A stretch of 11,608 bases of DNA, taken from positions 1 through 11,608 of the forward strand of contig JAAEMC010001023.1 of NCBI GenBank assembly GCA_024225895.1. Direction: 5' to 3'. The stretch is from Desulfobacteraceae bacterium. GTDB taxonomy: Bacteria > Desulfobacterota > Desulfobacteria > Desulfobacterales > Desulfobacteraceae. The position numbers were made by a program, and so were the translations under genes. The notes beneath the pieces are model-generated. The model was given only the letters and a program-made list of their open reading frames with translations. It made no database searches and was not told the DNA's origin. This document shows, in pieces, positions 532-11,608 of the stretch (its first letter is position 1; every line of letters begins with the position of its first letter).

Positions 532-1974
532 TTAAAGCGATGTTATAAAAGATTCCCCTTTTGAAAGGATCTCTTCTTTATCCTGGGGCCTTGTCAGGTT
601 GTTTAAAAGATCACAGGTCTTTTCTTTTAAAAGTCTGGATGCTTTTGGCTGGCCTTTTTCATTCCATTTATCAAGGGTGAGAAAGGGCCAGATGGTGCTG
701 GAGAATTGCGAGTCCCTAAAATATTTCATGGTGAGACCGGACATCATAAAATTACCGCCGGGGCCGATGGCTTCGATATCATCAAATCCCACGGATTCAT
801 CTTCTAAGGAAAATCCCGCCATAAAGGATCTGGATTGGTGGATGAGATCATCTGCGTAAACTACCATTTCAGGCGAAAATACAAGGGAATCAAAACTGCC
901 GCCCACAAAAGGCACCATTCCTGCGGCACCGGTAATGCTTGTGAAATGATTGATACAAAGGGTTGTGCCGGCTAAAAGATCCGCGCCCCATCCATTTCCG
1001 CTGCCGGATGTACCGCAGTGGGGTATTTTGTAAGATGCCATCATTTCTGCACAGGCCAGGTTTAAAAGCAGGGTGGCAGGAGAATAAAAACTGCCGGCAT
1101 TTTTCATGTCAAACGCAGCGGGAAGGCTCCCTAAGATAATGGGCGCACCTTCTTTTACAAGCTGGCTGTAGGTCAGCCCTGCCAGAAGTTCAGCCAAAAG
1201 CACTACCAGGGTCCCGGCAGGGGTGATGGGGCAGGTGGCCCCTGACATCCCATAGTTGGAAAAGATCACGGGAAGGCCTTTGCCAATGGCTGTATCCATT
1301 TTCTGTGTGGTTTCGACATTCAATACCAGCGGGGTAATGGGATTAACATAGGGAATAAGGAAAGGCTTGTCAGCCAGATCTCCATGGATATGTTCGCAAA
1401 GGTCCAATGCCGGGTGAAAGGATTCAAAATCTGAAATCAGCATCACCAACGGTTTGGTAGTGTTGGCCGTCATTTCCAGAATCCCGTAAAGATCTGCCGT
1501 TTCCGGGGGCAGGTCCTGGATCACGCCCGGTGTGGAAAGAAAATCATAGGCAGTCAGGTTATGGGCAAGCCCTGCAGCTTTAACCATGTGTTGCCGGTGA
1601 AAAGGGGTGATGCTGTCATCAGCCGGGTCTTGAAAATGGAGGTTGGTGCAACCGACACCAAAGACGGTATCCTGTGCCTCATCTCCTTTCAGTTTAAAGC
1701 AGGGATTGCCTGAGCGGTCATGGATTTGTATGCTGGATGGGGCAGCATTAATTGCCCATTGGACAAGGTCTTTTGGAATTTGGATGCGCTTGCTTTTTCC
1801 TGCTTTTCCTATTGCTTTTTCAAACAGATCTTTTGCATGTGGATCATCCACCTCGATACCGGTGGTTTCAAGAACTTTTATGGCATCGCTGTGAACCTTG
1901 GCGATCTGTTCCTGGGTCAAGACCTTGAGTTTGGGGTTTATATCCAGCACGTGCGCACTCCTTATTTTGTTCAA
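532..1974 (-). CDS. MttB-superfamily methyltransferase lacking pyrrolysine
   Basis: A 480-residue member of the trimethylamine methyltransferase (MttB, COG5598) superfamily, which moves a methyl group from a quaternary or tertiary amine to a cognate corrinoid protein in the cytoplasm. Family marks: N-terminal VHSDAIKVLETTGIEVDD, central TPAGTLVVLLAELLAGLTYSQ, C-terminal EAIGPGGNFM. No amber codon occurs in frame. Aligning its KIPHCGTSGSGNGW with LPSYVAGG-Pyl-GDSK of the mttB at 5502 puts a serine (about residue 325) at the pyrrolysine site. It therefore belongs to the non-Pyl branch, whose characterised members act on glycine betaine (MtgB), proline betaine, carnitine or similar; the substrate here is unknown. 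The start is taken as TTG at 1974, because the stop TGA of the upstream regulator overlaps it as TTGA and no earlier start exists in frame. The Shine-Dalgarno is poor, so translation is probably coupled. It is the last gene of the leftward unit; no corrinoid-protein gene is adjacent. Confidence 0.9.
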   Translation of the reverse strand: MNKIRSAHVLDINPKLKVLTQEQIAKVHSDAIKVLETTGIEVDDPHAKDLFEKAIGKAGKSKRIQIPKDLVQWAINAAPSSIQIHDRSGNPCFKLKGDEAQDTVFGVGCTNLHFQDPADDSITPFHRQHMVKAAGLAHNLTAYDFLSTPGVIQDLPPETADLYGILEMTANTTKPLVMLISDFESFHPALDLCEHIHGDLADKPFLIPYVNPITPLVLNVETTQKMDTAIGKGLPVIFSNYGMSGATCPITPAGTLVVLLAELLAGLTYSQLVKEGAPIILGSLPAAFDMKNAGSFYSPATLLLNLACAEMMASYKIPHCGTSGSGNGWGADLLAGTTLCINHFTSITGAAGMVPFVGGSFDSLVFSPEMVVYADDLIHQSRSFMAGFSLEDESVGFDDIEAIGPGGNFMMSGLTMKYFRDSQFSSTIWPFLTLDKWNEKGQPKASRLLKEKTCDLLNNLTRPQDKEEILSKGESFITSL

Positions 1975-2639
1975 ACGGTTAAGTAATCATCTGGAACAAG
2001 TTTTTTGACATCAATATGGTTCATGGTACTGAGCAGGTGATCTTCCATTTCAATTTCAGCCTGCTCTCTATCCATGTTTTCCAGCTGGTCAACGATTCTT
2101 TTATGTTCGTAAGGTGACTGGGTCTTAACATCCAAAAGCTGATGAAAAGGATCAAAAAGGATCAGGTAGATGCTGGTTTTCTGCATCAATTCCCTGATGT
2201 ATTGCACCAGTACCTGATTGCCTGATTTTTCAGCAATGGTTATGTGAAAAGCATCATTGATGTGATGGTACTCGTTTGTTTTCTTGGTGTGAAGGATCTC
2301 TTCCTCTTTAGCGATCAATCTGCGCAGTATTTCATAATCCTTGGGTTGCAGTTTATCAATTGTCAAAGACACAGCCATTTTCTCAAGCTGGGCCCTGACC
2401 TGGAATGATTCCTTGATTTCCTCCAGGGTCGGATTGACCACAGAAGCACCTTTATGGGGCTCATGCTCTGCCAACCCCTCATAAACAAGGCGCTTGATGG
2501 CCCCTTTGACTGTTGCCCGGCTCATATTCAGGCTTTCGGCCAGAGAAACCTCTTTGAGTTTACTGCCCTTTTTAATGTAGCCTTTGATAATGGCGACTTT
2601 AATTTTATTATAGGCCAAGTCTTCTAAATTACCGGCCAT
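1971..2639 (-). CDS. GntR-family transcriptional regulator, FCD (FadR) subfamily
   Basis: A 222-residue cytoplasmic DNA-binding protein. Residues about 8-70 form a GntR winged helix-turn-helix (SLAESLNMSRATVKGAIKRL, then EGLAEHEPHKGASVV). Residues about 75-210 form the all-helical FCD ligand-binding domain. Likely metal/ligand residues are visible: D129 and H132 in NDAFHITIAEKSGN, H179 in YEHKRIV and H201 in MEDHLL, in the usual FCD spacing. Such regulators usually bind small carboxylates or amino acids and release DNA when the ligand is present. The ATG at 2639 has a clear AGGAGG five bases upstream (plus-strand 2645-2650). The gene begins 16 nt after the ATPase gene and overlaps the following methyltransferase gene by 4 nt, so it is inside the operon it probably controls. 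A fitting operator lies at 5319-5331 between the two divergent units. That it governs both units, and which ligand it senses, are inferences. Confidence 0.93.
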   Translation of the reverse strand: MAGNLEDLAYNKIKVAIIKGYIKKGSKLKEVSLAESLNMSRATVKGAIKRLVYEGLAEHEPHKGASVVNPTLEEIKESFQVRAQLEKMAVSLTIDKLQPKDYEILRRLIAKEEEILHTKKTNEYHHINDAFHITIAEKSGNQVLVQYIRELMQKTSIYLILFDPFHQLLDVKTQSPYEHKRIVDQLENMDREQAEIEMEDHLLSTMNHIDVKKLVPDDYLTV

Positions 2640-2655: not shown

Positions 2656-3417
2656 TTACAAAATATGGGCCAGAAACTTTCTGGTCCGGTCTTCTTTTGG
2701 GTTGTTGAAAATTTCTTCGGGCGGGCCTGTTTCCACCCAGTTACCGTTGTCCATGATCATCACCTGGTCTGCCACGTCCCTTGCAAAATGCAATTCATGG
2801 GTCACGGCGATGATGGTCATCCCTTCTTTGGAAAGTCGTTCCATGACTTCCACCACCTCTGCCACAAGTTCCGGGTCCAATGCCGAGGTCGGCTCATCAA
2901 AGAGCATGACCTTGGGTTTCATGGCAAGACTTCTGGCAATAGCCACCCGCTGCTGTTGTCCGCCGGAAAGGCAGGATGGATATTCATCCCTTTTTTCGGT
3001 CAGTCCCACCCAGTCCAAAAGCTCTTCTGCATAGGAAACAGCCTCGCTTTTCTTTTGTTTTAAAACAGTGACAGGGCCTTCAATAATATTTTCCAATGCC
3101 GTCATATGGGGAAATAAATTAAAGGACTGGAAACACATGCCGGTCTTTTTGCGGATGTCCAGAATATGGCCGGACCGTTTTTTATCACTTTCTCCGGCCT
3201 GAATAACCGTACCATCCACTTCAATGGTTCCGGCAGTGGGCTCTTCCAAAAAATTGACACACCGCAAAAGGGTACTTTTGCCCGATCCTGAGGCGCCTAA
3301 AATAACGACGGTTTCTCCCTTATTTACGGAAAGGTCAATGCCGCGCAGGACATGATTCCGGTTTCCGAATACTTTGTGAATATTGGTCAGTTTTACCATG
3401 GGTTTTTCTTTTGCCAT
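2656..3417 (-). CDS. ABC transporter ATP-binding protein, polar amino acid type (GlnQ/HisP-like)
   Basis: A 253-residue ATPase that powers the adjacent importer from the inner face of the membrane. All nucleotide-binding motifs are intact: Walker A GASGSGKST (residues 41-49), Q-loop glutamine Q97 in MCFQSFNLFPHM, signature LSGGQQQR (150-157), Walker B VMLFDEP with D174 and E175, D-loop SALD (178-181) and switch histidine H207 in VTHELHFA. The ending, MIMDNGNWVETGPPEEIFNNP, is typical of the GlnQ/HisP/ArtP family, and length is normal. Start ATG 3417: an AGGAGG sits inside the last codons of the permease gene, nine bases upstream, and the two genes are only 3 nt apart, which points to translational coupling. 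It works with the permease (3421-4284) and the binding protein (4394-5245). Substrate specificity is not set by this subunit. Confidence 0.97.
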   Translation of the reverse strand: MAKEKPMVKLTNIHKVFGNRNHVLRGIDLSVNKGETVVILGASGSGKSTLLRCVNFLEEPTAGTIEVDGTVIQAGESDKKRSGHILDIRKKTGMCFQSFNLFPHMTALENIIEGPVTVLKQKKSEAVSYAEELLDWVGLTEKRDEYPSCLSGGQQQRVAIARSLAMKPKVMLFDEPTSALDPELVAEVVEVMERLSKEGMTIIAVTHELHFARDVADQVMIMDNGNWVETGPPEEIFNNPKEDRTRKFLAHIL

Positions 3418-3420
3418 TGT

Positions 3421-4284
3421 TTACATCCTCCTGTCGCCGCGGGCCATGTGTTCTTCAATTTTTTCCTGAAAATATTGGAGCACGATACACATCATCCAGT
3501 AAATCATTGCCACCATGACAAGCATTTCAAGGGATTGAAAATGCCGCCTGCCCACTTTCATGGCCCGGTAGGTCATTTCCCATACCCCCATGAGAGAAAC
3601 CATGGCAGAGTCCTTGACCATGGCAATAAATTCATTGGAAACCGGTGGTATGATTACCCGCATGGCCTGGGGAAAGATCACTCGTTTCATGGTCTGGCCG
3701 CTGGTCATGCCCAGAGCCTTGGCAGCCTCTGTTTGTCCGATTTTAATGGATTGAATTCCCGCCCGGACAGTTTCCGTCATATACGCGCCGTAACAGACAC
3801 CCAAAGCCAGGATACCGGCCGGAATGGCATGCAGTGTAAATAAACTTTGTATCCCGGTAAGACCGAGTCCTTCCAGGGCCAGGCCAATCTGGGGCAGGGC
3901 CAGGTACCACATGTAAATCTGAACCAGTAAAGGGGTTCCCCGGATAAGAGAGACATAGGCTGTGGCAATACTGTTGATAACGGGATTTTTGGAAAGTCTT
4001 CCCAATGCTCCTATCACTGACAGAATACACGCAAGTGAAATGGCCAGAATAGAAACCAGGATGGTATACCCGCCGCCTGCCAGGATAAACGGGAGCCATT
4101 TTGCCATAAACTTGAAATCAAGCCCTATAACGATCAATGTTGTAATCATTAAGATGCCAAGGACTATAAAAGAGATAATCAGTTTTCGTTTATACTTTTT
4201 TTGTTGGTTTATATTTTGCGCAAGAACGCGTTCTGCCTCCGGTGGAATACTGGAAAGGGTTGGGTCCAAAGTATCGCCGTTCAT
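3421..4284 (-). CDS. ABC transporter permease, polar amino acid type (HisM/GlnP family)
   Basis: A 287-residue inner-membrane protein. After a hydrophilic cytoplasmic N-terminus of about 34 residues come membrane segments near 35-54, 66-92, 107-130, 150-170 and 253-272. The cytoplasmic EAA loop that docks to the ATPase is clear at 170-206: TETVRAGIQSIKIGQTEAAKA followed by LG and then FPQA. SLIRGTPLLVQIY (112-124) is the other family hallmark. The N-terminal tail plus extra first helix make it longer than the commonest 220-250-residue permeases, as in some GltK/YecS-like members. Only one permease gene is present, so it probably works as a homodimer. Start ATG 4284 has AAGGAG six bases upstream (plus-strand 4291-4296). 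A strong hairpin separates it from the binding-protein gene upstream. Confidence 0.95.
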   Translation of the reverse strand: MNGDTLDPTLSSIPPEAERVLAQNINQQKKYKRKLIISFIVLGILMITTLIVIGLDFKFMAKWLPFILAGGGYTILVSILAISLACILSVIGALGRLSKNPVINSIATAYVSLIRGTPLLVQIYMWYLALPQIGLALEGLGLTGIQSLFTLHAIPAGILALGVCYGAYMTETVRAGIQSIKIGQTEAAKALGMTSGQTMKRVIFPQAMRVIIPPVSNEFIAMVKDSAMVSLMGVWEMTYRAMKVGRRHFQSLEMLVMVAMIYWMMCIVLQYFQEKIEEHMARGDRRM

Positions 4285-4393: not shown

Positions 4394-5245
4394 TTACAAT
4401 TTGGGAATCAAGTTGGTCCCATAGTATTTTTCAGACAATTTAACTAATGTACCGTCATCATACATGGATTTGATTACTTCGTTGAGTTTGGTTAGCAAAG
4501 AGTCGCTGTTGGCGCGGCTTTTATCAAGGGCAAAGCAAATGGGTTCAAAATAAGCGGGTTCACCCAGCATTGTTAAGGGGCAGCCTTTGCCGCATCCTGT
4601 GCGGATGGCTTCGGCAATGGTCTGCCTGGATGAGAAAACGGCATCCAGTCTCAGGCCGTCACCTAAAGACAAGTCTTCAATGTGGTTGGCATCGGTGGGA
4701 TAGGTTTTCAGATTCCCTGCTTTCCAGTTCTGAAAAGTGATTTTTGTATCTTCAATCACCAAATCTTTTTGAAGGTATCTTTCATTGGTGGTTTCACTGG
4801 CGACCCCGATTTTTTTGCCGGCCAAATCTTTTATGGTTTTAATGGTTTTGTTGTCTTTATGTATGGCAAACTGGGCCGGGGAGCTGTAATAAGGCGTGGT
4901 GAACAAAAGGGCATTTTTTCTTTCTTTGGTCGGAGTCATGGAACCAATGGAGAGATCCCATCTTTTTCCCCATTTACCTGCTGTGATCAGATCCCAGTCC
5001 GGGGTGACAAATTTCACTTTAATTCCCATTCTTTTAGCAACTTCCTTTGCCACACTGACATCAAATCCTTCCAATTCCCCTTTGTCATTTAAAAAACTCT
5101 GGGGGGCATAGTTGGCATCAGTGGAAACTACGATGGTTTTTGCCGCCATGATTTCATCCAGGACAGTGCCGCCTGCAAATCCTGTTCCCGTAAAAACAAG
5201 CAATGCCGTAAGGGTTAGGGCCAAACTTCCAAATACTTTTTTCAT
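4394..5245 (-). CDS. Periplasmic solute-binding protein, family 3 (amino-acid type)
   Basis: A 283-residue extracytoplasmic receptor that captures the substrate for the ABC importer encoded downstream. The N-terminus is a Sec signal peptide: MKK, then a hydrophobic core SLALTLTALLVFTGTG, with likely cleavage after GFA near residue 24. Mature-protein hallmarks of SBP_bac_3: IVVSTDANYAPQSF (38-51), LEGFDVSVAKEVAKRMGI (58-75), SIGSMTPTKERK (99-110) and LAGKKIGVASETTNERYL (141-158). RTGCGKGCPL places two cysteines (C218, C222) in a short loop, unusual for the family and possibly a disulfide. The start chosen is ATG 5245, seven bases after AGGAG (plus-strand 5253-5257); the GTG six codons upstream contains that ribosome site and is rejected. 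It is the first gene of the leftward operon. The substrate may be a methylated amine or N-methylated amino acid by context, but the sequence does not prove it. Confidence 0.95.
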   Translation of the reverse strand: MKKVFGSLALTLTALLVFTGTGFAGGTVLDEIMAAKTIVVSTDANYAPQSFLNDKGELEGFDVSVAKEVAKRMGIKVKFVTPDWDLITAGKWGKRWDLSIGSMTPTKERKNALLFTTPYYSSPAQFAIHKDNKTIKTIKDLAGKKIGVASETTNERYLQKDLVIEDTKITFQNWKAGNLKTYPTDANHIEDLSLGDGLRLDAVFSSRQTIAEAIRTGCGKGCPLTMLGEPAYFEPICFALDKSRANSDSLLTKLNEVIKSMYDDGTLVKLSEKYYGTNLIPKL

Positions 5246-5283
5246 GCTGATTCTCCTGTTCACTTCCTATTGATTATAGTTGC

Positions 5284-5501: not shown

Positions 5502-6983
5502 ATGAAACGTAATTTGCATGCCGGACGCCAGCTTAGTTCCGGACTGAGTCTCAACATCCTGACCGATGATGAATTGGATGAGATTCATTTCGGTACCCTT
5601 GAGGTTCTCAACGAGACAGGGGTCTTTGTCGAAGACGAAGAAGCCCTGGATTGTTTTGAAAAGGGTGGGGCTGTTGTGGACCGTGAGACAAAAAATGTAA
5701 AGATTCCGCCCTATGTGGTGGAGGATGCTATTCGCAGTGCACCTGGCAAGGTGGTGCTCCACGGCCGTGATCCCAAACATGACATTGTTCTGGAGAACAC
5801 ACGGGTTCATTTTACCAATTTCAGTGAAGGGGTGATGATCAATGATCCCTTTACCGGAGAAAACAGGGAACCGGTTAAAGAGGATCTGGTCAATTCCGCG
5901 AAAGTGATTGATTACCTGCCGGAGATTGATTTTTGTGAAAAGGCCCTGGGTGCACATGACGTGAACCAGGATTCCGTACCGCTTCACAATGCAGAAGCTT
6001 ATTTGACCAATACAAGCAAGCATTGCGCCTTTGGTCCGGGCAATGGCAAATTCTTGGAAAAGATTATCCAGATGGGCCATGTCATCGTGGGCGGGGCAAA
6101 GGAATTTGCAAAACGCCCCATCGTTTCTTTTACCACCTGCCCGGTAAGCCCCTTGACCCTGATTTCCGACTGTTGTGAAATCATCATGGCTGCTGCTAAA
6201 AACAATGTGGTCTGCAATATTCTGTCCATGGCCATGGCCGGCGGTACCGCTCCTGTGACCCTTGCAGGGACGCTGGTAAATCACAATGCAGAAGTGCTTT
6301 CCGGTATTACACTGGCACAGCTTACCCGAAAGGGAACTCCCGTGATTTACGGAAGCTCCACCACTGCCATGGATTTGAAACTGGCATCTGCAAGTGTTGG
6401 AACGCCGGAGTGTGCCGTCATCAGCGGGGCAGTGGCACGACTTGCCCGCTATTATGCATTACCGAGCTATGTTGCCGGTGGGTAGGGCGATAGCAAAATA
6501 TCAGATACCCAGACTGGCCATGAAAAGACATTAACCGGACTGATACCCGCATTGGCAGGTGCCAATATGATTTACGGTTCGGGAATGCTGGAAAGCGGCA
6601 TTACCTTTGATTTTGGCCAACTGGTTTTAGATTGTGAGTTCGCGCGTATGATCAAGCATACCATCCAGGGAGTTCCTGTGAATGATGAGACCCTTGCAGT
6701 CGATCCTATCAAGGAGATAGGACCGGGCGGAGATTTTCTCATGCACAAACACACATTCAACCATATGAGAGAACAGTCCCAGCCGGAAATGATTGACCGC
6801 AGAATGCGGGGAGCCTGGGAAAAAGCTGGCGCTACCAGCGCCTATGAAAGGGCCTTGGAAAAAGTAAGATATATTATTGAAAACCATAAACCCGATCCTT
6901 TGCCGGACGATGTACTCAAAAAGATCCGGTCCATTGTCACTGACACGGAAAAGGAAATGGGGATAAAACCCAAAAGCAAATAG
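5502..6983 (+). CDS. mttB: Trimethylamine methyltransferase MttB, pyrrolysine-containing (amber codon 328)
   Basis: Transfers a methyl group from trimethylamine (or a close relative) to the cobalt of a corrinoid protein in the cytoplasm. The gene is 493 residues, like archaeal MttB (about 495). Its in-frame TAG at 6483-6485 is decoded as pyrrolysine 328; translation continues in the same frame to 6983. Proof in the sequence: LPSYVAGG-Pyl-GDSK, then TQTGHEKTLTGLIPALAGAN and IYGSGMLESG follow the known MttB active-site context without a break, and upstream PVTLAGTLVNHNAEVLSGIT and YGSSTTAMDLK are family hallmarks. A tRNA-Pyl gene ends the same cluster. Start ATG 5502 has GAGGTGA seven bases upstream. 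The gene also ends in TAG, followed 15 nt later by a second in-frame TAG; the end carries a 14-bp tandem duplication. It is first in the rightward unit, 40 nt before the flavoprotein gene. Annotation as two ORFs or a pseudogene would be wrong. Trimethylamine is the default substrate from the family, not shown here. Confidence 0.96.
6466..6494 (+). promoter_or_regulatory. Possible RNA hairpin enclosing the pyrrolysine amber codon
   Basis: GCTAT (6466-6470) pairs with ATAGC (6490-6494), and GCC (6474-6476) with GGC (6486-6488), separated by a 3:1 internal loop. The UAG at 6483-6485 sits at the 3' side of the 9-nt apical loop. It is short and may be chance. Pyl insertion is thought not to need a strict recoding element, so this is only a candidate context effect. 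Confidence 0.25.
6483..6485 (+). other. In-frame amber codon decoded as pyrrolysine
   Basis: TAG at codon 328 of mttB. It lies at the site where pyrrolysine is found in MttB proteins, after VAGG and before GDSK, with uninterrupted homology on both sides. The decoding tRNA is encoded at 11340-11412. Confidence 0.95.
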
Positions 6984-6997
6984 CCAAAAGCAAATAG
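6970..6997 (+). repeat. 14-bp perfect tandem duplication spanning the mttB stop
   Basis: CCAAAAGCAAATAG occurs twice in a row (6970-6983 and 6984-6997). The first copy ends with the mttB stop codon. Since 14 is not a multiple of three, the second copy is read in another frame, but the mttB frame still meets a TAG at 6999-7001. Looks like replication slippage. Confidence 0.9.
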
Positions 6998-7023
6998 ATA
7001 GTTTTTGAAAGAAGGAAAACCAA

Positions 7024-9489
7024 ATGGATACAAAAAATATTAATCTGCCGAAACATGCCAGTGTGGTCATTGTCGGCGGCGGCATCATCGGCTGCTCCAT
7101 TGCCTACCATCTAGGGCATATGGGGTGCAAAGATGTGGTACTTTTGGAGCGGGATGAACTGACATCCGGAACAACGTGGCATGCAGCAGGGCTGATGGTC
7201 ACCTTTGGCTCATCATCTGAAACTGCAACTGAAATGCGGATCTACGGCCGGGATCTTTACAACAGCCTGGAAGCTGAGACCGGCCTTTCCAGCGGGTTTA
7301 CGCCGGTGGGTTTTATTGAAGCCGCCAGCAACGCGGACCGTTTGGAAGAGTACCGCCGTGTAGCAGCATTTAACAGATACTGCGGCGTGGATGTCAATGA
7401 AATCTCTCCCCGGGAAATAAAAGATCTTTTCCCCTTGGCAAGGGTAGATGACCTTTTAGCCGGCTTTTATGTGAAAGAAGACGGCCGGGTTAATCCTGTA
7501 GACGGCACCATGGCTCTGGCCAAAGGCGCCAGGAACCAGGGCGTTAAGATCATCGAAGGTGTGGCTTCCACAGGTGTTATCAAAAAAGACGGCAAAGTGG
7601 CCGGGGTAAAAACCAATTATGGCGACATTACCGCGGATGTAGTTGTTAACTGTGCCGGTATGTGGGCTCGCCAACTGGGTGATGTTGACGGAGTTAATAT
7701 CCCCAACCAGGCAGCAGAACATTATTACCTGATTACTGAAGAAATCGACAATATCCCCAAGAATATGCCTGTTTTGGAAGATCCTTCCCATTACGGTTAT
7801 TACAGGGAAGAAGTCGGAGGGCTTATGATCGGTCTGTTTGAGCCGGTCTGCGCGCCCTGGAAGCTTAATAAAGTTCCGGAAACCTTTTCATTTGGTGAGA
7901 TTGAACCGGATTGGGACCGCATGGGACCCTTTTTAGAAAAAGCCATGTCCCGTGTGCCTATTACCCAGGAACTGGGCATTAAGAAATTTTTCTGCGGGCC
8001 GGAAAGCTTTACAGCCGACTTGAGCGCCATTATTGGTGAAGCACCTGAAGTTAAAAACTATTTTGTTTGTGCCGGACTGAATTCAGTCGGCATTATCATG
8101 GGCCCGGGCCTGGGACGCATGATGGCCCAGTGGATTATGGAAGGCGATCCTGGAGTGGATATTACAGGATTTAACATCGACCGGCTGCACACATACCAGA
8201 ACAACAAGGAATACCGTGCGCACCGAACTGTTGAATCCTTAGGAAAAGTCTATAAATGCCACTATCCGTTTAAATCGGCTGAAACAGCCAGAGGTGCTAA
8301 ACAATCTGCTTTTTACGAGCGTTTGAAAGATCAGGGAGCCTATTTTAAAGATGTTTCCGGCTGGGAAGGCGCGGACTGGTTTGCAGGAGAAGGCCAAAAA
8401 GCCAAGATCGAAAAGCATTCCTGGGGTAAAGATGCCTGGTTCAAAAACTGGGAAGCTGAACATAAAGCCACCCGTGAAAATGTCATTCTCATGGACATGT
8501 CCTTTATGTCAAAATTCATGGTACAGGGCCGGGATGCCGGAAAGGTGCTGAACTATATCTCTGCCAATGATGTCAATGCAAAGATCAACCAGACAACCTA
8601 TACGCCGTGGCTCAATGAAAAAGGTAAACTTGAAGCAGACCTTACGGTAACAAAACTTGAAGAAGAAAAATTTCTTGTAGTGGTTACCGATACCATGCAC
8701 CGTCATGCAGAAACCTGGTTAAAGAGAAATATCCCGGCAGATGCCCATTGCTTTGTAACTGATATGACCTCTGCCTATGCCCAGCTGAATGTCCAGGGAC
8801 CCAAATCCCGTGAACTGATGCAGGCTGTTACGGATGCAGATATGTCCAACGATGCATTCCCTTACCGCCATGCCCGGGAGATTGCCATTGGATACGGCCG
8901 GGCCATTTGTGTCCGCCTCACCTATCTGGGTGAACTGGGATATGAGTTATACATCCCCACAGAACAAGCCGTACATGTCCATGATACGCTTGTGGAAGCA
9001 GGCAAAGAGCTTAACCTCACCCATGCAGGCCTGAAAGCTTTGGGCAGTTTAAGAATGGAAAAAGGGTACAGGGATTACGGTCATGACATGGATAACACAG
9101 ATGATCCCTATGAATGCGGATTGGGATTTACCATTAAACTGGATAAACCAGGCGGTTTCATCGGAAAAGAAGCCTGTGAAAAGAAAAAGGCTGAAGGTCC
9201 TTTAAAAAGGCGCCTTGCCCAGGTCCTGGTTAAAGACCCCGAACCCATGATGTATCATGCAGAAGTGATCATACGGGATGGCAAGAATGCCGGATATGTA
9301 AGATCCGGTTCTTATTGCTGGACCCTTGGCGGCGCTGCCGGGCTGTTTATGATCGAGGCAGATGAAGCCGTGGATCAGGCATATATTGACAATGGCAAAT
9401 GGGAAATTAATATTGCCGGCAAAGTCTATCCGGCCCAGGTTTCCTTAAAACCAATGTATGATCCTCAAATGAAAAAAATAAAGGCGTAA
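7024..9489 (+). CDS. FAD-dependent oxidoreductase / aminomethyltransferase fusion (dimethylglycine or sarcosine dehydrogenase family)
   Basis: An 821-residue cytoplasmic flavoprotein that oxidises an N-methyl group of a secondary or tertiary amine and hands the formaldehyde-level carbon to tetrahydrofolate. Residues about 12-390 are the DAO/FAD domain: VVIVGGGIIGCSIAYHLG (14-31), and TWHAAGL with H53 at the position of the histidine that binds FAD covalently in dimethylglycine dehydrogenase. FVCAGLNSVGIIMGPGLGRM closes the FAD fold. Residues about 395-460 link to a GcvT-like half (about 460-820): LNEKGKLEADLTVTKL carries D539 at the expected folate-site aspartate, with YLGELGYELYIP and CGLGFTIKLDK following. 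Length matches mammalian and Arthrobacter relatives (830-860). ATG 7024 has AAGGA seven bases upstream. Placed between mttB and etfBA, it probably uses ETF as electron acceptor. Dimethylglycine, sarcosine or dimethylamine are possible substrates; the sequence does not decide. Confidence 0.92.
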   Translation: MDTKNINLPKHASVVIVGGGIIGCSIAYHLGHMGCKDVVLLERDELTSGTTWHAAGLMVTFGSSSETATEMRIYGRDLYNSLEAETGLSSGFTPVGFIEAASNADRLEEYRRVAAFNRYCGVDVNEISPREIKDLFPLARVDDLLAGFYVKEDGRVNPVDGTMALAKGARNQGVKIIEGVASTGVIKKDGKVAGVKTNYGDITADVVVNCAGMWARQLGDVDGVNIPNQAAEHYYLITEEIDNIPKNMPVLEDPSHYGYYREEVGGLMIGLFEPVCAPWKLNKVPETFSFGEIEPDWDRMGPFLEKAMSRVPITQELGIKKFFCGPESFTADLSAIIGEAPEVKNYFVCAGLNSVGIIMGPGLGRMMAQWIMEGDPGVDITGFNIDRLHTYQNNKEYRAHRTVESLGKVYKCHYPFKSAETARGAKQSAFYERLKDQGAYFKDVSGWEGADWFAGEGQKAKIEKHSWGKDAWFKNWEAEHKATRENVILMDMSFMSKFMVQGRDAGKVLNYISANDVNAKINQTTYTPWLNEKGKLEADLTVTKLEEEKFLVVVTDTMHRHAETWLKRNIPADAHCFVTDMTSAYAQLNVQGPKSRELMQAVTDADMSNDAFPYRHAREIAIGYGRAICVRLTYLGELGYELYIPTEQAVHVHDTLVEAGKELNLTHAGLKALGSLRMEKGYRDYGHDMDNTDDPYECGLGFTIKLDKPGGFIGKEACEKKKAEGPLKRRLAQVLVKDPEPMMYHAEVIIRDGKNAGYVRSGSYCWTLGGAAGLFMIEADEAVDQAYIDNGKWEINIAGKVYPAQVSLKPMYDPQMKKIKA

Positions 9490-9504
9490 ATTACAGTACT
9501 TCTG

Positions 9505-9581
9505 TAGGGGCGGACCTATGTGTCCGCCCGTCATGGAAGGATATGGATTTGTAAACGGGCAGGCCTGTGTGTCTGCCCCTA
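9505..9581. repeat. REP/BIME-like double-hairpin element
   Basis: A 77-bp intergenic element with inverted ends TAGGGGC (9505-9511) and GCCCCTA (9575-9581). It holds two similar GC-rich hairpins: GGGCGGAC/GTCCGCCC (9508-9515, 9522-9529, loop CTATGT) and GGGCAGGC/GTCTGCCC (9557-9564, 9571-9578, loop CTGTGT, one G-U pair). The two units share the core CCTRTGTGTC and face each other. This is the build of REP/BIME elements or small MITEs mobilised by RAYT-type transposases. It sits between the flavoprotein gene and etfB, where it could slow 3' decay of the upstream mRNA or reduce read-through. No transposase is in the window. Confidence 0.75.
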
Positions 9582-9613
9582 TAAGGTTTTTCAGATAGCA
9601 AGGAACAAGATAT

Positions 9614-10384
9614 ATGAAAATTTGTGTATGCGTAAAACATGTGCCGGATACGGCAGCCACCATAAAACTGGCTGGGGATACCGCCTTTGATGACGCAGAT
9701 GTGAAATTCATCTCCAATCCCTATGATGAGTTCGGCATCGAAGAAGCGGTGAGTATTGTTGAAAAAGAGGGCGGGGAAGTGGTGATTGTGACTATAGGCA
9801 AAGAAGCTGCCACATCCACCATCAGAAGCGCCATGGCCATGGGTGCCCACCGGGCCATCCATGTGAAAACCGACGGCCAGTTTCTGGACAGTACCTTGAC
9901 TGCCAGGGCATTGAAAGCGGTTATGGAAGAAGATGGTTTGCCGGATTTGATTTTTACAGGCAAAGGGTCTGTGGATACTGAAAGCTTTCAGACCCAGTAC
10001 CGCCTGGCCAAATCCCTTGGCCTGCCTATCGTAAATGAAGTCTCAACCCTGACGCTTGAAGGGCAAAAAGCCATTGCCCAAAGAGAGATTGGCGGCGGTG
10101 AAAAACAGGTGCTTGAATTGGGCCTGCCTTGTGTTATCGGGGCGACAAAAGGCCTGAATGAACCCAGATATCCCAAGTTCCCGGATATTATGAAAGCCAA
10201 AAAGAAAGAGATCAAAGAGATGGCGCTTTCCGAGCTGGGGATTAATGAAGCCGACGCAAAAGTGACAATGGAAAAAATGGAAGCCGTACCGGAACGTTCC
10301 GGTGCGAAAATGATTGAAGGATCTGTGGATGATCAGGTGACAGAGCTTGTCAGAATCCTTAAAGAAGAAGAGAAGGTTATATAA
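9614..10384 (+). CDS. etfB: Electron transfer flavoprotein, beta subunit
   Basis: A 256-residue subunit of the cytoplasmic EtfAB heterodimer, which accepts electrons from acyl-CoA, dimethylglycine or sarcosine dehydrogenases and passes them on, usually to quinone through ETF:quinone oxidoreductase. N-terminal MKICVCVKHVPDTAATIKL and NPYDEFGIEEAV (35-46) are typical. LNEPRYPKFPDIMKAKKK (181-198) is the ETF-beta signature and partner-recognition loop. The AMP-site segment is divergent: TGKGSVDTESFQTQYRLA (115-132) in place of the common GKQ.ID.D..QTG form. ATG 9614 has AAGGA nine bases upstream. It follows the REP-like element and precedes etfA by 11 nt. Context says the adjacent flavoprotein is its electron donor. 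I cannot tell from sequence alone whether it bifurcates; the simple gene context argues for a non-bifurcating role. Confidence 0.95.
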   Translation: MKICVCVKHVPDTAATIKLAGDTAFDDADVKFISNPYDEFGIEEAVSIVEKEGGEVVIVTIGKEAATSTIRSAMAMGAHRAIHVKTDGQFLDSTLTARALKAVMEEDGLPDLIFTGKGSVDTESFQTQYRLAKSLGLPIVNEVSTLTLEGQKAIAQREIGGGEKQVLELGLPCVIGATKGLNEPRYPKFPDIMKAKKKEIKEMALSELGINEADAKVTMEKMEAVPERSGAKMIEGSVDDQVTELVRILKEEEKVI

Positions 10385-10395
10385 GGAGAGGATCA

Positions 10396-11328
10396 ATGGC
10401 AAATACAGCAATTTTAATTGAAACTGAAAATAGTGTTGTAAAAGAGACCAGCTTGGGTGTGATGACCGCCGCAGCCGGTGAAACGATTTATGCTCTGTTA
10501 CTGGATGAAGATGCCGGCGCAGTCAAAGAAAAACTGGCAGAATACGGTGCCGCAAATATCGTTACCGTAAAAGCAGGTGATGACCTTTCAAAGAATCCTG
10601 ATCTTCAAGCAGAAGCATTGGTGGCTGCCGTAAAAGAATATGGCTGTCAAACCCTTTTAGGAACAGCAAGCTCAACCGGCAAGGATCTTTTTGCAAGGGT
10701 AGCGGCCATCAAGGATGTCCCATTGGTATCCGATTGTGTGGCAGTGAATGTTGCCGATAAAACAGCAAAAAAATCCCATTTTTCAGGCAAGACCTTTGCA
10801 ACTCTGAAAATTAATGATGATTTTCTTTTGTGCACTGTCCGGCCCAATTCGGTTGAACCCGTTGCAGCAGCGGCTGCCGGAGAGGTGATCGAGTTTAATG
10901 CCGATGTGGCTGATCCGGGACTTGTGAAAATTGTGGAAGTCAAAAAAGATACCGGTAAAAAACTGGATCTGACCGAAGCACCGGTAATTGTCACCGGAGG
11001 CCGTGCAATTAAGGCAGCAGAAAATTATTCAATGCTGGAAGCCTGTGCCGATAAATTGGGCGCTGCTGTCGGTGCTTCCAGGGCCGCTGTTGATGCAGGA
11101 TATGCCCCCCATACCATGCAGGTCGGCCAGACCGGGAAAACCGTGAGCCCCAAGCTTTATATTGCCTGTGGCGTGTCCGGTGCCGTACAGCATTTTGCCG
11201 GGATGAAAACCTCCAAGGTGATTGTGGCTATTAATGAAGATAAAGACGCTCCTATATTTGCCAAATGTGATTATGGTATTATAGGTGATATCTTTGATGT
11301 GGTTCCGGCATTAACGGAGAAATTGTAA
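10396..11328 (+). CDS. etfA: Electron transfer flavoprotein, alpha subunit
   Basis: A 310-residue partner of EtfB carrying the FAD. The C-terminal FAD domain is intact: GASRAAVDAGY (226-236, with R229), QVGQTGKTVSPKLYIACGVS (242-261), SGAVQHFAGM (261-270) and NEDKDAPIFAKCDYGIIGDI (280-299), closely matching the family. The N-terminal domain (1-190) is the usual less conserved alpha/beta fold; length is normal. ATG 10396 has AAGGAGAGG just upstream, overlapping the end of etfB. Only 11 nt separate its stop from the tRNA-Pyl gene, with no promoter or terminator visible between them, so the tRNA is probably made by read-through of this transcript and then cut out. Confidence 0.96.
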   Translation: MANTAILIETENSVVKETSLGVMTAAAGETIYALLLDEDAGAVKEKLAEYGAANIVTVKAGDDLSKNPDLQAEALVAAVKEYGCQTLLGTASSTGKDLFARVAAIKDVPLVSDCVAVNVADKTAKKSHFSGKTFATLKINDDFLLCTVRPNSVEPVAAAAAGEVIEFNADVADPGLVKIVEVKKDTGKKLDLTEAPVIVTGGRAIKAAENYSMLEACADKLGAAVGASRAAVDAGYAPHTMQVGQTGKTVSPKLYIACGVSGAVQHFAGMKTSKVIVAINEDKDAPIFAKCDYGIIGDIFDVVPALTEKL

Positions 11329-11339
11329 TCAATTAATGC

Positions 11340-11412
11340 GGAGGGTGGATCGGATGAGATCACATGGACTCTAAATCCATGCAGCCGGGTGCAACTCCCG
11401 GGCTCTCCGCCA
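11340..11412 (+). tRNA. pylT: tRNA-Pyl, anticodon CUA (amber-decoding)
   Basis: A 73-nt tRNA with encoded CCA. Acceptor GGAGGGT pairs with GCTCTCC (7 bp, including G-U pairs), discriminator G. A single base separates acceptor and D stems, the D arm is GATC-GGATGA-GATC, the anticodon stem has 6 bp (CATGGA/TCCATG) with loop CTCTAAA and anticodon CTA at 11371-11373, the variable loop is 3 nt (CAG), and the T arm is CCGGG-TGCAACT-CCCGG. The one-base junction, long anticodon stem and short variable loop are diagnostic of tRNA-Pyl, and the sequence closely resembles the Desulfitobacterium hafniense molecule as I remember it, with one extra D-loop base. It is charged by PylRS and decodes the UAG of mttB. 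No separate promoter is evident. Confidence 0.97.
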
Positions 11413-11437
11413 AATTCTTATGTAACACAAGAATTTG
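11411..11437 (+). repeat. Inverted repeat directly after (and touching) the tRNA-Pyl CCA end
   Basis: CAAATTCTT (11411-11419) and AAGAATTTG (11429-11437) are perfectly complementary over 9 bp, with a 9-nt loop. The left arm begins with the last two bases of the encoded CCA. No U-tract follows, so it is a weak terminator candidate; it may be a 3' processing or protection structure. Confidence 0.5.
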
Positions 11438-11449
11438 CAAGGCGAAAAG

Positions 11450-11467
11450 TTTTGATTAAAATCAAAA
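11450..11467. repeat. AT-rich palindrome downstream of tRNA-Pyl
   Basis: TTTTGATT and AATCAAAA (8-bp arms, 2-nt centre AA). Such a tight loop is poor as an RNA hairpin; it is more likely a protein-binding palindrome, or chance in AT-rich DNA. Confidence 0.3.
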
Positions 11468-11545
11468 AATACAAAAAAGACTATAGATTCCGTATCTGGA
11501 TGAAATTGATTCGGGTCTTAAATTTGAAATTACATTAAAGAAAAC

Positions 11546-11608
11546 ATGACTATGAGAGATATAATTATTGAAAATTCGTTTTTGATGGTCATGTTTATAC
11601 CTTCGGTA
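11546..11608 (+). CDS. Possible 5' end of an unidentified gene, cut by the window edge
   Basis: From ATG 11546 (or ATG 11552) the frame stays open to the end of the window, giving MTMRDIIIENSFLMVMFIPS. The ribosome site is weak (AAAG a few bases upstream) and the peptide is too short to place. In other bacteria pylT can neighbour pylS or pylBCD, but the residues seen do not match any Pyl protein start I know. Treat as unproven. Confidence 0.2.
   Translation, partial: MTMRDIIIENSFLMVMFIPSV

Follow-up and report, generated by a model that had tools for sequence, protein, structure and literature searches.

A predicted mRNA stem-loop behind the in-frame amber codon of Desulfobacterota mttB genes

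A predicted mRNA stem-loop lies behind the in-frame amber codon of the mttB gene in an 11,608-nt stretch of DNA from a Desulfobacteraceae bacterium (contig JAAEMC010001023.1, assembly GCA_024225895.1), which is the whole stretch analysed and is called the window below. Folding, pair counts and the conservation of synonymous sites in related copies indicate that this stem-loop is probably a real RNA element kept by selection. The codon that precedes it, UAG at 6483-6485, is almost certainly decoded as pyrrolysine (Pyl) by Pyl-tRNA(CUA), positions 5502-6983 thus forming one gene. The reading of amber as pyrrolysine in such mttB genes is already published and is not new. The features of the window are listed in Table 1.

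Table 1. Features of the window, with the basis of each assignment
Feature	Position	Strand	Basis
Non-Pyl MttB-family methyltransferase	532..1974	-	AGC at Pyl column
GntR/FCD regulator	1971..2639	-	Profile matches
Amino-acid-type ABC transporter, ATPase	2656..3417	-	Profile matches
Amino-acid-type ABC transporter, permease	3421..4284	-	Profile matches
Amino-acid-type ABC transporter, substrate-binding protein	4394..5263	-	Profile matches
mttB, trimethylamine--corrinoid methyltransferase, 493 codons	5502..6983	+	TIGR02369, PF06253, 7xcl alignment
In-frame amber codon, probably read as pyrrolysine	6483..6485	+	Codon 328; 7xcl column; TAG in 51/51
Rfam RF02510 PYLIS_3 match	6483..6582	+	80.9 bits, gathering 38; drawn pairs unsupported
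Predicted mRNA stem-loop	6535..6582	+	Folds, pair counts, synonymous-site peak, synonymous-shuffle folding
Dimethylglycine-dehydrogenase-like flavoprotein (DAO, FAO_M, GCV_T domains)	7024..9489	+	Domain matches
Electron transfer flavoprotein, beta-subunit-like	9614..10384	+	Profile matches
Electron transfer flavoprotein, alpha-subunit-like	10396..11328	+	Profile matches
pylT, tRNA-Pyl, anticodon CUA	11340..11412	+	tRNA call; near-identical in relatives

Position and sequence of the stem-loop

Counted from the T of the amber codon, the stem-loop extends from +52 to +99 nt. Its outer arms are 6535-6542 and 6575-6582, its inner pairs join 6548-6549 to 6568-6569, and its apical hairpin is made of the arms 6551-6556 and 6561-6566 around the loop AGGU (6557-6560). 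The TTG at 6552, which the original prediction had taken for a mis-annotated start, sits within the 5' arm of this hairpin; neither the hairpin nor the tRNA-Pyl gene had been mentioned in that prediction. The consensus of the apical hairpin is RUUGGC-AGGN-GCCAAY, the wobble base of the loop being variable and the outermost pair of the stem alternating between A-U and G-C (76 copies: A-U 43, G-C 27, G-U 1, C-C 5). At the codon level, positions +21 to +27 read CCC GCA TTG GCA GGT GCC AAT in 29/29 close copies, bar one GGC, and mostly CCG GCG TTG GCA GGT GCC AAC in a clade near 61% identity.

When 51 nt of the window were folded, a free energy of -19.5 kcal/mol was obtained (z -3.09), and the identical stem-loop was present in a 181-nt fold. 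A more extensive multi-branch fold predicted for the window, from +26 to +141, was rejected, since most of its additional pairs occurred in 61 copies no more often than independence would give; the exception was +44/+122, with 0.70 against 0.57 expected under independence. An overlapping gene was likewise discarded as the source of the codon conservation, no other-frame ORF of at least 60 aa in the ORF listing covering the whole of 6534-6584. As for a likeness to bacterial SECIS elements, a search of 6400-6750 with E up to 5 listed just two matches, PYLIS_3 and a snoRNA hit attributable to chance.

Conservation, folding and covariation

In 29 close copies, the synonymous codons located 15-45 codons behind the amber were conserved far above the rest of mttB. 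The best 12-codon window reached an observed/expected ratio of 2.61 (z 5.1; 32 rows, gene mean 1.39, sd 0.24), and the highest among 2271 windows in six neighbouring genes was 1.88, these controls having 15-21 rows against 32 for mttB and partly lower identity, so that they are not perfectly matched. Codons +17 to +33 were also folded against synonymous shuffles that keep the protein and the codon make-up. The mean z was -2.16 in 61 TAG copies versus -0.26 in 16 non-Pyl and -0.37 in 8 archaeal copies; it fell under -1 in 45/61 TAG copies, and the other windows tried in TAG copies gave values of -0.72 to +0.59.

Pairs were counted in 62 aligned gapless copies and compared with shuffles, which ignore relatedness. 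The apical hairpin was paired in 93.8% of 372 cells, and 31 cells were changed on both sides versus 11.1 in shuffles (reached by 0/500). The outer stem, columns 53-59 with 94-100, was paired in 82.5% of cells versus 78.5% in shuffles (again reached by 0/500), two of its pairs being broken in 25/62 and 27/62 copies. For the whole stem-loop of 15 pairs, 87.3% of 930 cells were paired, slid versions giving 26-48%, and 60 cells were changed on both sides versus 23.1 in shuffles, a count that 0/500 shuffles reached.

Simulation along the tree gave p 0.0034 for the 15-pair total, a structure that was picked on the same data as tested and whose extended stem came from RIBOSUM scoring. No single pair fell under p 0.05 in this simulation, the outer apical pair having p 0.10; switches of the latter pair numbered 3 on well-supported branches and 6 on all branches, and the sign test was not significant. 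With its default scoring, RNAalifold kept only 3 hairpin pairs (-1.21 kcal/mol). A test of hairpin versus TAG by independent pairs contained just 2 pairs and had no power.

Distribution of the hairpin among mttB copies

Among 76 non-redundant Desulfobacterota TAG copies, six hairpin pairs formed in 61, five in 10, four in 2 and two in 3. At least five of the six apical pairs were therefore present in 71/76 TAG copies, versus 0/16 non-Pyl copies that were aligned at 34% identity or more; the TAG copies below five pairs were L064, L157, L125, L126 and L158. When all 48 non-Pyl family members were considered, most of them too distant for a comparable hairpin column, one formed six pairs and one five. 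In held-out copies, fetched after the hairpin had been seen and absent from the first set, at least five pairs were found in 24/27 TAG and 0/10 non-Pyl copies, with a Fisher value of 8e-7 that overstates the case because the copies are related. In the tree, 14 of the 16 non-Pyl rows grouped in a single clade next to the Firmicutes copy, with the remaining two as long branches at the root; TAG loss and hairpin absence therefore coincide, for the most part, only once.

Five or six pairs were found in 0/8 archaeal TAG copies (Thermoplasmata-type by their titles, not Methanosarcina), and the single Firmicutes TAG copy examined formed only three of the six; the five-pair row of that group is a non-Pyl gene. 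Since 5/76 Desulfobacterota copies, the 8 archaeal copies and the Firmicutes copy all have fewer than five pairs, the hairpin is not required in every Pyl-mttB. The Firmicutes copy (L061) has no in-register hairpin. One codon upstream in this single sequence, at 11041-11056 (65-80 nt after its TAG), UGCGCU-AGGU-GGCGCA could give six pairs around the same AGGU loop. The 16-nt hairpin sequence recurs unchanged in the TAG copy L127 (G078:C156:34943-36361), whose product is only 41% identical to the MttB of the window and whose branch in the tree is very long.

Possible role of the stem-loop

We tentatively propose that Desulfobacterota mttB genes contain a true cis-acting Pyl insertion element, namely a stem-loop in two tiers, 52-99 nt behind the UAG, with a conserved AGGN loop. 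Selection at synonymous sites would have kept it in paralogues with as little as 41% identity, and non-Pyl paralogues are without it; that it acts in Pyl insertion is a still somewhat doubtful proposition. As to its action, we infer, with reserve, that the stem-loop might bias UAG towards pyrrolysine over release. At the UAG, Pyl-tRNA would compete with the release factor. Messenger RNA that starts 52 nt downstream of the decoded codon is beyond the mRNA entry channel of the ribosome. A direct contact of the SECIS/SelB kind at the moment of decoding is therefore unlikely, the outer arm starting at that distance. Instead, the stem-loop could make ribosomes slow down or queue, protect the transcript or recruit a factor, and it would mark the Pyl UAG off from terminal UAGs such as mttB's own TAG at 6981-6983. 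Against a recoding role stand the distance of +52 nt, which is far from the decoding site, and the statement on E. coli in a review (PMC8211752) that no cis element is needed in that host.

A real stem-loop with another job, whether a binding site for a regulator on DNA or RNA, a transcription-pause hairpin or a stability element within mttB, is a serious possibility, although it falls short of a probable one. A DNA-binding protein could equally well recognise the core, whose sequence, ATTGGC-N4-GCCAAT, forms a near-perfect dyad; the stem-loop is at least 50 nt away from the UAG; and its lack in non-Pyl copies is largely one event, as the single clade of 14/16 rows indicates. However, the arms outside the dyad need wobble of the RNA type, columns 59-94 being U-G in 62/62 copies and columns 55-98 being G-U in 32 and G-C in 26 of the 62. 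In TAG copies ranging from 41 to 100% identity the hairpin also sits a constant number of codons behind the UAG, it occurs in both TAG copies of the tandem locus L049, and 55/55 matches to its core in the 1.03 Mb examined fell, by their coordinates, within TAG-mttB copies.

It is improbable that the hairpin is a by-product of the amino-acid constraint (LAGAN) combined with codon bias. Non-Pyl copies that have LAGAN do get up to 4/6 pairs for free (CTGGCNGGNGCCAAY), but the synonymous codons are themselves conserved, Leu +23 being TTG in 70/76 TAG versus 2/16 non-Pyl copies, and the six neighbouring genes have no comparable synonymous peak. Moreover, the shuffle z of -2.16 is confined to the TAG copies, and six TAG copies have ALSGCN instead of ALAGAN, yet 5/6 pairs stay.

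The mttB gene and its amber codon

The mttB frame starts with ATG at 5502 and, after 327 sense codons, reaches TAG as codon 328, from which it continues in the same frame to a terminal TAG at 6981-6983, making 493 codons in total. A standard-code ORF listing divides it into an ORF of 327 aa and another of 143 aa that starts with TTG at 6552. LPSYVAGG precedes the TAG in this frame, and GDSK and GHEKTLTGLIPALAGAN follow it. The in-frame TAG, the continuation to 6983 over 493 codons, the motifs as MttB hallmarks on both sides and the split into two apparent ORFs with a start at 6552 had been put forward in the original prediction and were confirmed in the sequence.

With a residue at 328, the product scored 751.8 bits with TIGR02369 (Pyl-dependent MttB; curated cut-off 525), its residues 16-483 covering model positions 2-469, and 323.4 with the Pfam MTTB model. 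In the solved MttB 7xcl, the unusual residue X, its pyrrolysine (334 by own count), falls in the alignment column of codon 328 and has the LPSYVAG context in common with it; 7xcm has K at that column. Codon 328 was TAG in 51/51 matches of at least 53% identity, the window's own copy included; matches under 45% identity had either TAG (8 archaeal) or a sense codon at this column. Because the product fills the TIGR02369 model and the TAG is present in all 51 near matches, the in-frame TAG is not there by chance. Compared with the 28 nearest of 40 relatives, the gene had a median pN/pS of 0.14 before the TAG and 0.19 behind it, the latter value showing that the downstream region is also under selection. 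Pyrrolysine 328 would be the active-site residue through which MttB removes a methyl group from trimethylamine and hands it on to a corrinoid protein.

At the other end of the gene, a terminal TAG was found in 8/53 TAG-site copies with a visible gene end, and 6 more copies run off their contigs. In the window, a second in-frame TAG, at 6999-7001, follows the terminator, so that a product read through the terminator would be up to 20 residues longer. With UAG serving as a terminator here as well, a signal that sets its two uses apart would be helpful. A 14-nt tandem repeat, CCAAAAGCAAATAG twice, makes up the 3' end of mttB (window 6970-7001).

Pyrrolysine machinery

The tRNA-Pyl of the window is almost identical to those of 7 relatives compared, in 6/7 of which pylSn follows. 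The source genome (4.64 Mb, 1184 contigs, 81% complete) also contains a contig, C681, which encodes a corrinoid protein, a methyltetrahydrofolate-type methyltransferase, and PylB, PylC and PylD, the last three scoring 477.2, 409.4 and 231.1 bits, each above its cut-off. The corrinoid protein upstream of pylB scored 196.1 against a cut-off of 215.3 for TIGR02370 (MttC-like).

No match to PylSc or PylSn was found in this 81% complete genome with NCBIfam models or with alignments of the proteins of relatives; the same models do detect the PylRS halves of relatives (128.9 and 292.9 bits). In locus L042 the gene order is mttB, flavoprotein, etfB, etfA, pylT, pylSn, mttC, pylB, pylC, pylD and pylSc, and L025, L026, L031 and L036 have the same order minus Etf and mttC. 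The pylSc gene follows pylD in six loci (these five and L037), and C681 stops 42 nt after pylD, so pylSc quite possibly lies just past its end; in L019, no pylSc was seen in the 2 kb examined after pylD. In the relatives translated, pylSn starts about 15-80 nt after pylT. No pylSn is present in the window's 196 nt behind pylT (11413-11608), a stretch with no convincing match among the loci compared. The absence of PylRS from this genome is presumably an assembly gap. The Desulfotignum cluster (L037, 14063-16572) comprises pylT, pylSn, pylD and pylSc, with no pylB or pylC match between them.

A survey of 86 genomes of the family, with thresholds of E 1e-100 or better for TAG-bearing mttB and E 1e-30 or better for PylSc, gave the former in 30/86, the latter in 28/86 and both in 25. 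The other family genomes with a TAG-bearing mttB had PylSc in 25/29, and in 13/13 of those with 200 contigs or fewer. TAG-bearing mttB without PylSc was found in G000, G019, G039, G042 and G055, which have 420-1184 contigs each, and PylSc without TAG-bearing mttB in G033, G052 and G064. Several TAG-mttB paralogues can occur in single genomes, as in G038, where an in-frame TAG is present in 5/7 matches (E 1e-100 or better).

Absence of both PylRS and pylBCD from the genome had been expected to speak against the original prediction: pylBCD proved to be present, and PylRS was the part not found. That the two apparent ORFs are one Pyl gene is upheld by the 7xcl column, by selection on both sides of the TAG, by the tRNA-Pyl of the window and by pylBCD in the genome. 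Actual read-through, a PylRS and the MttB chemistry may be expected in this organism.

That the TAG is a true stop is very improbable, whether the gene would then be dead or truncated or a second polypeptide would be started anew at TTG 6552. Such a reading would fit the failure to find PylRS in this genome and the conservation of the TTG at +23, but the gene is conserved over its full length with selection downstream of a TAG kept in 51/51 near matches, tRNA-Pyl and pylBCD are present, the TTG belongs to the hairpin arm, and copies of the clade near 61% identity do not retain the ATG five codons further on. Both forms were rejected on conservation, selection and Pyl machinery. An ordinary amber-suppressor tRNA that would put a standard amino acid at 328 is scarcely credible; nothing was found in its favour, the sole tRNA called in the window being a tRNA-Pyl nearly identical to those of 7 relatives, with pylSn following in six, and pylBCD being kept.

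Neighbouring genes and a possible dimethylamine route

The flavoprotein gene directly follows mttB in 19/31 close loci; of the others, the contig ends in or at mttB in 5, less than 1 kb is left in L040, and 6 have room but no flavoprotein. No match to the Pyl enzymes for dimethylamine (MtbB, TIGR02368) and monomethylamine (MtmB, PF05369) was obtained in the incomplete genome, which raises the possibility of a Pyl-free dimethylamine route. The arrangement suggests, no more, that dimethylamine is passed to the flavoprotein and Etf (7024-11328) in place of a second Pyl enzyme. Rfam mtbB matches occur near mttB in the loci L061, L065 and L157. The nearest solved relatives of the product of the non-Pyl methyltransferase gene (532-1974) are 2qne and the glycine betaine methyltransferase 9yce, and dimethylglycine from this enzyme is an equal candidate for the substrate of the flavoprotein.

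Comparison with known systems

The solved MttB proteins of Methanosarcina (PDB 7xcl, 7xcm and 7xcn), whose organism we take to be M. barkeri, resemble the window's product in their whole-length homology and in the unusual residue at the same column. They differ in being archaeal, and the 8 archaeal copies examined, none from Methanosarcina, were without the hairpin.

The amber finding was already known, since Kivenson et al. (2021) described the locus in close relatives, with Pyl at 327 of 485 in the MttB of marine Desulfobacula-like Deltaproteobacteria (PMC8318568). As far as its description of the locus goes, that locus shares with the window the amber codon, tRNA-Pyl, a lysine/arginine/ornithine-type binding protein, ABC genes, a regulator and a non-Pyl MttB. 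L027, a contig of the bbl-31 genome of Kivenson et al. (CORE_19_RING_Bin_00001), has the window's upstream gene order at 87% identity, and its contig ends in mttB. The main text of the article contains 0 mentions of electron transfer flavoprotein, sarcosine or PYLIS, and in the portions dealing with the locus neither a dimethylglycine-dehydrogenase-like gene nor an mttB mRNA structure is named (PMC8318568).

The Rfam family PYLIS_3 (Pyrrolysine insertion sequence mttB) matches the window, but its 8 drawn pairs exclude the window's hairpin. Only 4/8 of them form in the window, and in the 62 copies 67.9% of their cells were paired versus 68.5% in shuffles, 399/500 shuffles being at least as high. 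The PYLIS_3 pairs were accordingly rejected as the cause of the codon conservation, having no support beyond shuffles. The model also exceeded its gathering score in 5/7 non-Pyl MttB-family copies from 11 sources (L130, L133, L023:11988, L054:5977 and L049:4942) and was silent only in two, of 25-27% identity. Since non-Pyl copies match too, PYLIS_3 detects MttB coding sequence and not a Pyl signal. PYLIS elements are reportedly also treated in Zhang 2005, Namy 2007 and Longstaff 2007. In their treatment of mttB, Theil Have et al. (2013) reported no sign of a common structure, on the basis of 13 listed genomes that included one deltaproteobacterium (PMC3639795). The PYLIS of mtmB and mtbB, as presented in the same paper, involve, as does the present stem-loop, the notion of a structured region that reaches as far as 100 nt behind the UAG (PMC3639795).

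Implications

Among open-licence PMC papers, as distinct from the subscription literature, no description of a hairpin behind the mttB amber was found. If the proposed role is true, the stem-loop would be, as far as this literature search shows, the first cis element of mttB to be backed by covariation, and it would account for the use of UAG both as pyrrolysine and as terminator in these bacteria, even within one gene. The stem-loop bears on the old question of whether UAG is read as Pyl by competition with the release factor alone or with the help of an mRNA signal; one review, in its account of the matter, describes Pyl UAG as lacking a specific mRNA context. A co-varying hairpin tied to the TAG copies makes this question testable with a few synonymous changes.
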